Of a stretch of 64,000 nucleotides of DNA, positions 4,301 to 58,145 are shown piece after piece; positions within the stretch are counted from its first letter, which is position 1, and every line of letters starts with the position of its first letter. The stretch comes from Desulfurivibrio sp. (lineage in GTDB: Bacteria > Desulfobacterota > Desulfobulbia > Desulfobulbales > SURF-16). A model generated the notes under the pieces. It saw only the letters and a list, made by a program, of their open reading frames with translations, was not told the DNA's origin and searched no databases. The stretch lies in assembly GCA_003605035.1 (NCBI GenBank), contig QZKJ01000004.1, forward strand, positions 1-64,000. Direction: 5' to 3'. The translations under genes and the position numbers were made by a program.

Positions 4301-4669
4301 ATAGCTGTCGCCCCTTGTGGCGACAAAGCCGGCATACTCTTCCGCCAGCCTCTGCCGCGCCTCATCGTCACCGTGCGACAGGAAGGAATGCATGGCCTGA
4401 TGGGTGGCAAGATACCGCAGATCCGCGGCAAGTAGGGAGATGATATTGTCGATGGCGGCATGTACAACCTTGACGCATGCCATGGCCTTTTGCCGCTGCT
4501 GCCGGTTGCCTTCGCGGATATGGGCGTAGGAGCCGGCCAGCACGATGGCCAGAAGAAAAAGAAAGAGCGGGATATAGTGCTTGAGGAAACGTTTGACGGC
4601 AGTGACAAATTGTTTTTTGTCCGGCATCAGCTGGCCTTGAAAATGGATGGGCACATTAACAATTTTCAC
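1349..4669 (-). CDS. Membrane hybrid sensor histidine kinase
   Basis: 1106 aa. The chosen GTG start at 4669 has AGGA five bases upstream; the ATG at 4627 (MPDKKQF) is an alternative with a weaker site. Order: TM helix about 33-49; extracytoplasmic sensor region about 55-345 of double-Cache type; TM helix about 347-372; PAS/PAC about 378-500 (DRLGDIVMVNRAFCLLSGY) and a second degenerate PAS; HisKA with phospho-acceptor His627 in NMGHEIRTPLNAILGY; HATPase_c with GGSGLGLSI; receiver domain with acceptor D922 in LILDMQMPVLDG; then a helical tail of about 110 residues that might be a degenerate Hpt. It overlaps the HD-GYP regulator gene by 26 bases, so the likely output is control of cyclic di-GMP breakdown in response to an external ligand. 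The ligand cannot be told from sequence. Confidence 0.92.
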   Translation of the reverse strand: MKIVNVPIHFQGQLMPDKKQFVTAVKRFLKHYIPLFLFLLAIVLAGSYAHIREGNRQQRQKAMACVKVVHAAIDNIISLLAADLRYLATHQAMHSFLSHGDDEARQRLAEEYAGFVATRGDSYARITYLSDSGVVLVREGSAALSAAMITGEKLSAASRATFFQQTKLLGKGAMYLADSAMDAGTAGGKDAAGPLLVAAAPVFDDRGRHQGMVVVECRPQHFIRELQEIAAAFPGRIALVNRWGKEFVGAGNSHDAAVPESRNDSFAIRYPESWGKIASADHGQFLDRQEIVTFVTCQPARPNGATGSAAQAEIRIAASPDSDYYWKIINHFKAWPLSTDNVVFIRQFFIAGAALSLLAALGVAVGLRSRSRMQADEDALVSQALQQCSAALLVIDRLGDIVMVNRAFCLLSGYQAEEAAGRNLREISGEPAAGPMLAMWESLRSGQPWQGEVLSRKKEGEKYWEHVSIAPLKDRDGAISHFAVVKADVSEQRRIQLELLRLASFPEENAAMIIEINLHGRITYANPASRHRFPDAGDDLDHPLLAGFDSRLLHFDEKMWQDFTDEVDIDGANIERQVKFIRENRLIRIYGREITPLQEIGLSLQRAKQEAVEARRMKSFFLANMGHEIRTPLNAILGYADLMLMEAESPVDKKRLATISRAGKNLLALINDILDFAKIEAGKLEIVHQEFSLRQSMNDLGQIFSPQAAEKGIDFRISGNVDMPDWVIGDSIRLNQILVNLLSNSFKFTEKGSVALHCSYAKDTAIFTVADTGIGISRQQQQVIFSEFQQGDAASTRRYGGSGLGLSITSRLVSLMSGSISLESDSGRGSVFTVRLPLQKSAATETGAVPEQDIRISGEMLTAALAHAGIKLRVLLAEDDEMNQNLIKEMLRNLGLDAVLAANGQEALDRLAEADFDLLILDMQMPVLDGMQTIARIRENDRLKSLYVLALTGEAMPGDKEKFLQIGCNDYLAKPLELGIFYRKMYLLVADRFSLAIRENMGAEPPGQPFAASRNFVLSPELCFHLAQAIEVLQKNLKIFNPDQIRLLAASFADFVYIKEIRDLQQELQQIAATFDDEALPQLIRKLETFLPNGRKCQDAQQDPDR

Positions 4670-14566: not shown

Positions 14567-14583
14567 TGGCACGATTGATGCTT
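14567..14583 (+). promoter_or_regulatory. Sigma-54 promoter of the UspA-like gene
   Basis: TGGCACGATTGATGCTT has the -24 GG at 14568-14569 and the -12 GC at 14580-14581 with exactly 10 bases between, and a full match to the TGGCACG -24 block. Expected start of transcription is near 14593, giving a leader of about 80 bases before the ATG at 14674. Confidence 0.85.
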
Positions 14584-38116: not shown

Positions 38117-38133
38117 TGGCACGAACAATGCTT
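38117..38133 (+). promoter_or_regulatory. Sigma-54 promoter of the PEP-CTERM gene
   Basis: TGGCACGAACAATGCTT: GG at 38118-38119 and GC at 38130-38131 with a 10-base gap; the -24 block is a full consensus match. Predicted start near 38143, leaving an 85-base leader with AAAGGAG before the ATG at 38228. PEP-CTERM genes are known to be controlled by sigma-54 with PrsR-type activators in some lineages. Confidence 0.85.
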
Positions 38134-38227: not shown

Positions 38228-39007
38228 ATGAAAAGGACAAGGTTCATGATTTTAAAAAAATACGCAGGTCAAGCCATTGTTGCCCTGATAATAGCAGGCG
38301 CAGCCTGCCAGCCGGCAAATGCCGCCCCCATCACCACCGTTTTTGACGCAGGCTGGACCCAGATTGCATCCGAAGATTACGTCGGCGCAAGCGGCTATGT
38401 CAATCCCGGCTATGGCGGCCAGGATTTCGATGCCGAGTACCTTTACTACAAACTGTCCGGCACTACTCTTTCCATCGGACTGCAGTCAGGCTTCGACCTG
38501 ATTGACGGCAGTGTTTACTACAGCGGCAAAACATATTATGCCGGCGACCTGGCGCTCTCCTTTGACAACAACAAATCCGTCTATGAGTATGCCTTTGATT
38601 TCGGCCTGCTCACCAAAGACTATTACGACCGTTTGGTTGATGCCGACCTGGCAGCAAGCGACGGCAAAGATGCAGCCGGCCTCTATGCGGTCTCGCAATG
38701 GAATAACAGTATCTACTTCACCGCCGCAACCCCCTTTGCCATGGATGGCGGCAGCCTGATAAGCTCTGGTGCCACATCAGCCGGCTACGACGGCACACTT
38801 GATTCCTATTGGCGCATCGTTTCCTTTGACATCACGTCAATCGGCGATTTCGATGGCCTGGACGCCCACTGGACCATGTCGTGCGGCAATGACGTTATTG
38901 ATGGACACGCTGCCGCCCCGGTGCCCGAGCCGGCGACCATGCTGCTCTTCGGTACCGGCATCACCGGCCTGGCCGCCTGGCAGCGTCGCAGGTTCAGAAA
39001 AGCATAA
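38228..39007 (+). CDS. PEP-CTERM sorting-signal protein
   Basis: 259 aa. A signal peptide (about 1-32, cleavage near ANA-AP) is followed by a beta-rich secreted domain of about 190 residues with many aromatic and Asp/Gly residues. The C-terminus is a PEP-CTERM signal: VPEPATMLLFGTGITGLAAW then basic RRRFRKA. Such proteins are processed by exosortase and usually belong to an exopolysaccharide/biofilm envelope system; no exosortase is encoded in the window. Function of the main domain unknown. Driven by a sigma-54 promoter and closed by a strong terminator. Confidence 0.92.
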   Translation: MKRTRFMILKKYAGQAIVALIIAGAACQPANAAPITTVFDAGWTQIASEDYVGASGYVNPGYGGQDFDAEYLYYKLSGTTLSIGLQSGFDLIDGSVYYSGKTYYAGDLALSFDNNKSVYEYAFDFGLLTKDYYDRLVDADLAASDGKDAAGLYAVSQWNNSIYFTAATPFAMDGGSLISSGATSAGYDGTLDSYWRIVSFDITSIGDFDGLDAHWTMSCGNDVIDGHAAAPVPEPATMLLFGTGITGLAAWQRRRFRKA

Positions 39008-39035: not shown

Positions 39036-39063
39036 GGCGGAGCCACCCGGCTCCGCCTTTTTT
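39036..39063 (+). terminator. Terminator of the PEP-CTERM gene
   Basis: GGCGGAGCC (39036-39044) and GGCTCCGCC (39049-39057) form a perfect 9-bp stem with a 4-base loop, followed by a run of six T. Confidence 0.92.
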
Positions 39064-39147: not shown

Positions 39148-39264
39148 GCTGTTTTTGGGCATATCACCCAGCAATTCCTGCCACGGGAATGCGGCAGCCA
39201 GTAGGAGCAGGCCAGAAGCAGTCAGAGCAAATGGCATCATATCAATAAGTTAGCCAAAAACAGC
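39148..39264. repeat. Inverted pair of 11-bp sites upstream of a sigma-54 promoter
   Basis: GCTGTTTTTGG at 39148-39158 and its exact complement CCAAAAACAGC at 39254-39264, centres 106 bases apart. Relative to the predicted start (about 39319) they lie near -165 and -60. This is where enhancer sites for a sigma-54 activator would be. Confidence 0.5.
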
Positions 39265-39292
39265 CGCCAGCATACAGGGCGGAACAGCAAAG

Positions 39293-39309
39293 TGGCACCC
39301 TTATTGCTT
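39293..39309 (+). promoter_or_regulatory. Sigma-54 promoter of the 64-aa protein gene
   Basis: TGGCACCCTTATTGCTT: GG at 39294-39295, GC at 39306-39307, spacing 10; matches TGGCAC and TTGCT at both elements. Predicted start about 39319, about 38 bases before the ATG. Confidence 0.88.
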
Positions 39310-39356
39310 TTACCCCCTGCACAACACCAACAAACCTAGGCAAAGAGGTGCAAGCC

Positions 39357-39551
39357 ATGTTTACCCGAGAAAACGGCCAGATATGGGTGAAAAGCCCGGA
39401 AGCGGATGGGACGACAGCAAAAGGGGTGTGGGTCTACCCCAGTGAAGACATTGAATGGCATTATGCCTGCACCCCGCTGGGCATGCTGGTGACCGGCTAC
39501 ACCATCAAACCCTCCCGCATCGACAGCCAGGCCCTCAACGAGGCGCAGTAA
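39357..39551 (+). CDS. Small conserved-looking protein under sigma-54 control
   Basis: 64 aa from ATG 39357 with AGAGGTG 7 bases upstream (a GTG at 39348 is less likely). No family recognised: MFTRENGQIWVKSPEADGTT, then GVWVYPSEDIEWHYACTPLG and GYTIKPSRIDSQ. No TM segment or signal. The sigma-54 promoter and two upstream inverted sites show that it is expressed in a regulated way. Ends one base before the convergent ddl gene. Confidence 0.7.
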   Translation: MFTRENGQIWVKSPEADGTTAKGVWVYPSEDIEWHYACTPLGMLVTGYTIKPSRIDSQALNEAQ

Positions 39552-39552
39552 C

Positions 39553-40491
39553 CTATTGCCGTTCCAGCGCCAGCCCGATCAGCAGGTCAAGGAGTTCAGA
39601 AAAGCTGTAACCCACCGCCTGCGCAGCCTGAGGCAGCAGACTGGTTGGCGTCATCCCCGGGATGGTATTTGTTTCAATAACATATACTTCCCCCCCCTCC
39701 GACACGATCATATCGGTCCGGCTGTAACCCCGCAGATGCAAGGCGCCATGGGCTCGCACGGCATAATCCTGGGCCTGGCGGGTTATTTCTTCGGGAAAAT
39801 CAGCGGGACAGATCTCCCTGGTGGCGCCGGCCTTGTACTTGGCCTCATAATCAAAAAACGCATACTCCTTGCCGGGAATGATCTCAACCAGCGGCAGGGC
39901 CTGCAGGTCATCATTGCCGAGCACCCCGCCGGTGATTTCCCGGCCGCGGATAAATTCCTCCACCATAACCTCGCGGTCATAGCCAAAGGCCCGCCCAAGC
40001 CCTGCGGCAAGCTCCCCATTATCTCGGGCGATGCTCATGCCGAGGCTGGACCCCTGCCCCACTGGTTTCACCACCAGCGGGAAACGCAGCGGCGCTGACA
40101 GATTTTCCGGCCGCTCGATATCCCCGGGCGAGGCCATCCGCCACTCCGCCACCCGCAAGCCCGCCTGTTTGTAGTGAATTTTAGCCAGATTTTTATTCAT
40201 GGCCAGGGCGCTGCCCAGCACCCCGGACCCCTGATAGGGCAGCCCCAGCAGATCGAGAAAACCCTGCATGGTGCCATCCTCGCCAAAGGGGCCATGCAGG
40301 AGGATAAAGGCCATGTCAAGACCAGCCGCATCCGCCGCCAGCCTGGCCAGGTCACTGGCCGGGTCATACTGACGCACATCATATTTCTGCTTATCAAGAG
40401 CAGCCAGCACACCCCGTGCGCCGGCCAGGGAAACTTCACGTTCGCCGGATTTGCCGCCGGCCAGCAGGGCAACCCGCAATCTCGTCGTCAT
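39553..40491 (-). CDS. ddl: D-alanine--D-alanine ligase
   Basis: 312 aa from ATG 40491 (GAGG upstream; ATG 40503 lacks a site). ATP-grasp ligase: N-terminal GGKSGEREVSLAGA, FILLHGPFGEDGTMQGFLDLLGLPYQGSG, VVKPVGQGSSLGM, and the C-terminal ATP/Mg site SRTDMIV...YVIETNTIPGMTPTSLLP. Makes the D-Ala-D-Ala dipeptide of peptidoglycan precursors. Divergent from the GlcD-like gene and separate from the mur cluster. Confidence 0.95.
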   Translation of the reverse strand: MTTRLRVALLAGGKSGEREVSLAGARGVLAALDKQKYDVRQYDPASDLARLAADAAGLDMAFILLHGPFGEDGTMQGFLDLLGLPYQGSGVLGSALAMNKNLAKIHYKQAGLRVAEWRMASPGDIERPENLSAPLRFPLVVKPVGQGSSLGMSIARDNGELAAGLGRAFGYDREVMVEEFIRGREITGGVLGNDDLQALPLVEIIPGKEYAFFDYEAKYKAGATREICPADFPEEITRQAQDYAVRAHGALHLRGYSRTDMIVSEGGEVYVIETNTIPGMTPTSLLPQAAQAVGYSFSELLDLLIGLALERQ

Positions 40492-40565
40492 AATCGTCCT
40501 CATTTCTTAATAGTGATCCTGTTTGGGCTTGCATATTACATTTTCCACAATACATTAGCAAGGTG

Positions 40566-57167: not shown

Positions 57168-58145
57168 ATGGAAGTCCAACATCCGTACAACTTCTCGAAT
57201 ATAATCGCCCGCAGCCACAAAATGCAGGCAATTTTTAATACCATCAAAAAAATTGCCGATTTCAAGACCTCCATCCTGATCACCGGCGAATCCGGGACAG
57301 GCAAAGAGCTGATTGCCAAGGCGATTCATTACAACAGCAAACGCCGCGAGTCTCCCATGATCGCGGTCAACTGTGGCGGCATTCCGGAAACCCTGCTGGA
57401 AAGCGAACTGTTCGGCCACACCAAAGGGGCCTTTACCGACGCCTACCGGGTCAAGAAAGGGCTGTTTGAGGAGGCCGACGGCGGCACCCTGTTTCTCGAT
57501 GAAATGGGGGAACTGCCGCTGTCACTGCAGGTGAAACTGCTGCGGGCCCTGCAGGAGGACGAGATCCGGCCCCTGGGCGACAGCAAAACCGTCAAGGTGG
57601 ATGTGCGCATCATCACCGCCACGGCCAGAAACCTGGGCGACATGGTCAACAAGGGCCTTTTCCGCGAAGATCTCTTCTACCGCATCAACGTGCTGACCAT
57701 CGAGGTGCCGCCTCTGCGGGAACGGCGGGAGGATGTTCCCCTGCTGGTGGAGCACTTTGTGCAGAAATACAACACTCGCTTGGGCCTCGAGATCAAGGAG
57801 GTCCACCCTGACTGCCTGCAGCGGCTGATCAATTATGACTGGCCCGGCAATGTCAGGGAACTGGAAAATGTGGTGGAAAGAAGCATGGTGCTGGCCGAGA
57901 AAGATGTGCTGACCACCGAAATCCTGCCGCCGGAACTGCTGCGTCAAAGCGGCAGCTCAGCCCGTGACGATGTTTTTTTCTGGGACGAATTTTCCATCAA
58001 GACCAACACCAAAAAACTGGAAAGGCAGCTTATCAGCAAGGCCCTGGCCGAGACGAGAGGCAATAAAACCAAAGCCGCCAGCAAGCTGGAAATCAGCCTT
58101 CCCGCCCTGTTATACAAAATCAAGGAATACAATATCGAAAGCTGA
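57168..58145 (+). CDS. Sigma-54-dependent activator (AAA+ and Fis-type HTH, no receiver)
   Basis: 325 aa. AAA+ core from residue 15: Walker A GESGTGKE, the sigma-54-contacting loop as GAFTDA (canonical GAFTGA), Walker B GGTLFLDEMGELP, and R-finger region FREDLFYRINVL. C-terminal Fis-type helix-turn-helix (LAETRGNKTKAASKLEISLPALLYKIKEY). It has no N-terminal receiver or GAF domain, so activity must be set by something else, perhaps expression or a partner protein. Candidate activator for the three sigma-54 promoters found in the window, but that link is only inferred. Confidence 0.94.
   Translation: MEVQHPYNFSNIIARSHKMQAIFNTIKKIADFKTSILITGESGTGKELIAKAIHYNSKRRESPMIAVNCGGIPETLLESELFGHTKGAFTDAYRVKKGLFEEADGGTLFLDEMGELPLSLQVKLLRALQEDEIRPLGDSKTVKVDVRIITATARNLGDMVNKGLFREDLFYRINVLTIEVPPLRERREDVPLLVEHFVQKYNTRLGLEIKEVHPDCLQRLINYDWPGNVRELENVVERSMVLAEKDVLTTEILPPELLRQSGSSARDDVFFWDEFSIKTNTKKLERQLISKALAETRGNKTKAASKLEISLPALLYKIKEYNIES

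Follow-up and report, generated by a model that had tools for sequence, protein, structure and literature searches.

In Desulfovibrio vulgaris, the orp promoters (DVU2106, sigma-54, IHF) carry an activator site at -131 or -88, a sigma-54 element at about -12 and an IHF site between them (PMC3897727); the E. coli IHF consensus is given in the same work as WATCARN4TTR. A second related case is the PrsK/PrsR system, in which activator motif 1 has TTTACA as its last bases and stands about 63 nt upstream of the sigma-54 element (Haft et al. 2006, PMC1569441). We analyzed a 64,000-nucleotide stretch (the window; contig QZKJ01000004.1) of a Desulfurivibrio sp. assembly of 4.22 Mb in 118 contigs, and identified a gene for a 64-aa orphan protein preceded by an upstream activating sequence (UAS), an IHF-like site and a sigma-54 promoter (Table 1). 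With a probability of about 0.7, this gene is driven by a sigma-54 two-component system that also regulates its own operon; the kinase and regulator of this system, encoded on contig C100 of the same genome (G000), would act at the UAS. The elements, their spacing, their conservation and the co-occurrence of the regulator were read directly from the sequence, and binding, phosphorylation, IHF action and the role of the protein are predicted from them.

Table 1. Positions of the features discussed. Plain numbers refer to the window; L086 and L043 are loci of the same genome, with their own numbering.
Feature	Position	Strand	Basis or remark
Sigma-54-type promoter TGGCACGAACAATGCT of PEP-CTERM gene 38228-39007	38117-38132	+	No UAS of the TGGGCATATCACCCA kind
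11-bp site 1 (GCTGTTTTTGG)	39148-39158	+	Exact copy, about -166; shares its final three bases with the start of the UAS; apart from that, judged incidental
UAS TGGGCATATCACCCA, near-palindromic, 15 bp	39156-39170		Putative binding site of the response regulator
IHF-like site TATCAATAAGTTA (WATCARN4TTR)	39240-39252	+	Best match; at a constant place between UAS and promoter in 7/7 orthologues
11-bp site 2 (GCTGTTTTTGG inverted)	39254-39264	-	Exact copy, about -60; judged incidental, not conserved
Sigma-54 (-24/-12) promoter TGGCACCCTTATTGCT	39293-39308	+	Consensus match; predicted transcription start at about 39319
Ribosome-binding site AGAGGTG (GAGG at 39345-39348)	39344-39350	+	Sequence; ATG 6 bases further on
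ORF of the 64-aa orphan protein	39357-39551	+	ATG at 39357, stop at 39551; orthologues, third-codon-position bias
ddl (D-alanine--D-alanine ligase), convergent neighbour	39553-40503	-	Pfam Dala_Dala_lig_C, E=9.7e-54
Histidine kinase	G000:C100, L086 8116-6257	-	PAS-HisKA-HATPase after a GAF-like N-terminus; no obvious membrane segment
NtrC/AtoC-type regulator	L086 about 6240-4798	-	Directly downstream of the kinase gene
67-aa Cys-rich basic orphan protein (MSVWRF...MMCGSL)	L043 1219-1017 (G000:C86:16782-16982)	- (L043)	UAS and sigma-54 promoter

The 64-aa gene and its promoter region

A sequence-only reading of the window had proposed a tiny unknown protein at this locus, and the gene proved to be real. 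Orthologues were detected in six genomes, all within one family (four from the same genus and the others from two further genera, 68-92% identity), and no orthologue was found outside this family in a search of 258 genomes of the order. The relatives found by protein are metagenome-assembled genomes labelled Proteobacteria, Deltaproteobacteria or Desulfobulbaceae. Because the differences from orthologues fall mostly at third codon positions (first/second/third, 3/1/15 against G001 and 15/7/36 against G018), the protein is under purifying selection. It is an acidic polypeptide of 7.2 kDa (pI 4.8), with no membrane segment by hydropathy, no signal peptide and no family in Pfam, NCBIfam or PHROGs. 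When it was compared by sequence with solved structures, the best match reached only E=0.15. Its AlphaFold model, which was beta-rich and of moderate confidence (mean pLDDT 73, pTM 0.50), matched no solved fold at E<=0.001. A phage origin, and provisionally also a plasmid origin, was rejected, as there was no PHROGs match and no relative among viral contigs, and a non-coding RNA at this locus was likewise rejected, no Rfam match coming close to the gathering score.

The promoter had been described as matching the consensus in both elements, and this was confirmed: TGGCACCCTTATTGCT contains the GG-N10-GC element and is a full match to TGGCACN5TTGCW. This strict pattern occurs at 22 sites in the genome, compared to none for the reversed pattern, and the element is kept in all seven orthologous promoters (TGGCAC in six, TGGCAT in G005). 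Several of the 22 sites precede plausible genes, such as ammonium-transporter-like and flagellar-hook-like genes recognized from their translations, and control by sigma-54 is thus common here. The genome encodes 37 strong sigma-54 activator domains, so a shared sigma-54 does not imply a shared activator.

Alignment of the seven upstream regions revealed three conserved blocks, namely TGGnnATnTnnCCCA, a match to the IHF consensus and the sigma-54 element; the tight sigma-54 control that had been suggested for such a small protein is supported. The UAS was found in 7/7 promoters, at distances from the -24 element of 137, 137, 138, 137, 137, 124 and 138 bp (thus 137-138 bp upstream in six of them). 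For the IHF-like block, the mismatches to WATCAAN4TTR summed to 5 over the seven orthologues and 0 of 2000 dinucleotide-preserving shuffles were as good.

Exact matches to TGGGCAWATMACCCA occur at two places in the genome, one at the 64-aa gene and one on C86; the latter precedes by 112 bp a further strict sigma-54 promoter, behind which a 67-aa orphan protein is encoded. Three more matches have one mismatch, and two of these form a tandem pair upstream of the histidine kinase gene on C100. A loosened search for the bare UAS yielded 143 matches (reversed control, 35) in genomes carrying the C100 regulator and 120 (reversed control, 44) in genomes lacking it, a count that is uninformative on the link to the regulator and has an imperfect control. 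Since the bare UAS is over-represented in both groups, it is not specific by itself; only its combination with the promoter and the sites upstream of the operon are specific.

The candidate activator and its targets

The C100 kinase contains HisKA (8e-15), HATPase_c (1.2e-25) and PAS (5e-13) domains, and its ORF adjoins that of the regulator on the same strand; the regulator is composed of Response_reg (4.8e-28), Sigma54_activat (2.9e-68) and HTH_8 (1.4e-16) domains. Between the UAS pair and the kinase gene lies AGGTATGGATTTTGCT, a weaker sigma-54 element (AGGTAY-N5-TTGCW). The tandem pair, with its two sites 39-44 bp apart, and this promoter are kept in G000, G001, G003, G005, G010 and G011, and a weaker tandem pair is present at the operon in G018. 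Two of the five UAS matches at <=1 mismatch in the genome are located upstream of this operon, compared to about 0.02 expected by our own estimate, which allots some 400 bp of upstream DNA to each of the 37 activator genes.

Orthologues of the kinase (at least 80% identity) were detected in the genome itself and in G001, G003, G005, G011 and G018, and those of the regulator in the same genomes plus G002 and G010; the kinase is missing from G002 because the contig starts just before the regulator. Among 22 genomes of the family, the regulator was present in 7/7 genomes with the 64-aa gene (at least 80% identity) versus 3/15 without it (61-80%), giving p=0.0007 in a Fisher test that ignores shared ancestry. 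In G010, which lacks the 64-aa gene, the kinase orthologue is broken by three stops (two TGA, one TAG; G010:C34:4872-5733), and the adjoining regulator is intact. Directly downstream of the C100 operon, a PEP-CTERM/VPLPA-type exported protein is encoded on the minus strand (L086 4280-3618), with a sigma-54-like element at 4486.

In the circuit that we propose, the C100 kinase would phosphorylate the NtrC/AtoC-type regulator encoded directly downstream. The regulator would in turn bind the palindrome TGGGCATATCACCCA, which lies some 137 bp before the -24 element; the DNA between this site and the promoter may be bent by IHF, and the ATPase of the regulator would open the sigma-54 RNA-polymerase complex, so that the 64-aa protein is made. 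By the same reading, the regulator would also occupy the tandem pair that precedes its own operon, together with a small number of promoters elsewhere. That it binds the UAS at the 64-aa gene is suggested by the operon-upstream sites and by its co-occurrence with the gene.

The same promoter anatomy could be served by another of the sigma-54 activators of the genome, which number about 36 besides the C100 regulator; the latter would then share or compete for similar sites. The 37 activator domains of the genome leave room for such a protein, and in G008, which lacks the C100 regulator, a perfect UAS with a sigma-54 promoter adjoins another NtrC-type regulator, which has a DNA-binding helix (DTLRYQVKKFGL) similar to that of C100 (DTLRYRIKKFGL); a paralogue could therefore bind the UAS. 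However, it is the C100 regulator that matches the distribution of the 64-aa gene, and its operon was the only activator operon found with the UAS in its own upstream region. We consider another activator unlikely and retain the C100 regulator as the probable activator.

Additional candidate targets were found by searching for the composite of UAS and sigma-54 promoter, which occurs at 12 places among the matches listed in 14 genomes, compared to 0 for the reversed pattern. Six of the 12 places, namely G013, C7 of the genome itself, G005 C56, G002 C187, G002 C298 and G005 C10, had neither been used to define the motif nor been found earlier. The composite recovers the 67-aa gene in the genome itself (C86) and, in another genus, in G013; the UAS at this gene is also present in G001 and G003. 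The 67-aa protein has no match in Pfam, NCBIfam or PHROGs. Its family was detected in 24 of 30 sampled genomes of the order, often in two copies, one of them under a UAS and a sigma-54 promoter. Two small conserved orphan proteins, of 64 and 67 aa, appear to be part of one signalling response.

Other composites precede multihaem cytochrome c-like genes, on C7 of the genome itself (G000:C7:78428-78553, L104) and on C56 of G005 (G005:C56:1919-2039, L111), a hint that the reach of the two-component system extends to extracellular electron transfer. Secreted proteins follow the composites at G002 C187, G002 C298 and G005 C10, and the G008 composite, already seen in the UAS search, precedes a receiver-PilZ-like gene next to the NtrC-type regulator. 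On C27 of the genome itself, a tandem UAS is followed by a TGGTAT-N5-TTGCT element, with a gene for a LigT-type 2'-5' RNA ligase about 330 nt downstream. We infer that the C100 system drives the 64-aa gene and a few others, including the 67-aa orphan, multihaem cytochromes and secreted proteins.

The sequence-only reading had grouped the 64-aa gene with the PEP-CTERM and universal stress protein (USP) genes of the window in one sigma-54 regulon of small genes. A wider sigma-54 regulon that includes a second small orphan is supported by our data, but the grouping with these two genes did not hold. The USP gene has a sigma-54-type promoter at 14567, as the PEP-CTERM gene has its own, yet neither promoter had a UAS (<=3 mismatches) or an 11-bp site (<=2 mismatches) in the 350 bp upstream, and a shared regulon with them was rejected. 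Past the PEP-CTERM gene, a strong terminator with a 9-bp stem and a T-run (39036-39057) shields the promoter region of the small gene from upstream transcription. The window also encodes a sigma-54 activator (57168-58145) whose called ORF comprises just AAA+ and HTH domains and lacks a receiver. This activator gene directly follows one for a prepilin-peptidase-like protein, and its product may be a pilus regulator truncated at the N-terminus.

Role of the product and other readings of the locus

As to the function of the 64-aa protein, our best guess, and it is a guess, is that this small protein is soluble, stays in the cytoplasm and assists or modulates the two-component response. It is distinctly less likely to be, instead of an ordinary target, a lineage-specific, sigma-54-induced regulator that acts back on the kinase and its partner regulator or, combined with the antisense transcript into ddl, ties signalling to cell-wall precursor synthesis.

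The stops of the 64-aa gene and the convergent ddl gene are separated by 1 bp, with no plus-strand terminator between them, and the spacing in the relatives is 2, 2, 2, 2, 80 and -6. As the two stops lie within 1-2 bp of each other in five genomes and the genes overlap in G018, antisense read-through into ddl has to be taken seriously, either as an alternative or as an added effect. In its strong form, the transcript would act mainly as an antisense RNA into the 3' end of ddl, damping D-Ala-D-Ala ligase, and the short ORF would be secondary. This we regard as very improbable, as the third-codon-position bias and the retention of the protein at 68-92% identity point to a coding function and the two genes are 80 bp apart in G011.

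The two exact inverted copies of GCTGTTTTTGG on which the sequence-only reading had centred are present, 106 bp apart, at about -166 and -60, and the window holds seven copies at <=1 mismatch versus 1.9 expected. That this pair binds the activator or forms a loop controlling the promoter is nevertheless hardly credible, as the sites are kept in no relative, even in G001 with its 92% identical protein, exact copies in the 4.2-Mb genome number 10 versus 7 for the reversed control, and no such site lies near any of the 21 remaining strict sigma-54 promoters. Conservation points to TGGGCATATCACCCA, accompanied by the IHF-like site, as the activator site; the 11-bp sites were rejected in this role by conservation and the genome-wide counts.

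Comparison with known systems

The locus belongs to uncultured relatives of sulfate reducers, in which most of the many sigma-54 activators have no known targets. An unannotated small ORF has here been turned into a testable circuit, in which a putative activator is named, its 15-bp site, the IHF-like site and the promoter are located, and a few genes are listed as probably co-regulated. To our knowledge, the UAS and most of the targets belong to no named system.

Compared to PrsK/PrsR, the C100 system is also two-component and sigma-54-dependent, and PEP-CTERM genes adjoin both the 64-aa gene and the regulator operon. However, the PrsK/PrsR motif ends in TTTACA at about 63 nt, whereas at the 64-aa gene about 122 nt separate TGGGCATATCACCCA from the sigma-54 element. 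The C100 regulator scored below the PrsR cut-off (TIGR02915, 368.3 versus 502.6 bits) and the kinase below the PrsK cut-off (TIGR02916, 88.9 versus 300 bits). With scores under the cut-offs and a different motif, identity with PrsK/PrsR was rejected.

The orp operons of D. vulgaris have the same order of activator, IHF and sigma-54 elements as the promoter of the 64-aa gene, at similar distances, but differ in the activator, the palindrome and the target genes. The main text of the papers on the D. vulgaris sigma-54 regulon contains no matching motifs.

The closest general likeness is to the NtrC/AtoC/ZraR-type regulons (group I enhancer-binding proteins), which similarly combine a receiver-AAA+-Fis-type helix-turn-helix regulator with a PAS/HisKA kinase, palindromic upstream sites, an IHF-like site, a -24/-12 promoter and an autoregulated operon. 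Neither C100 protein reaches the NCBIfam equivalog cut-offs of AtoS, ZraS, AtoC, NtrC and ZraR (for AtoS/AtoC, 477 versus 714 with the regulator and 306 versus 646 with the kinase). The proposed circuit is a new, well-delimited regulon of a known type, ending in an orphan protein.
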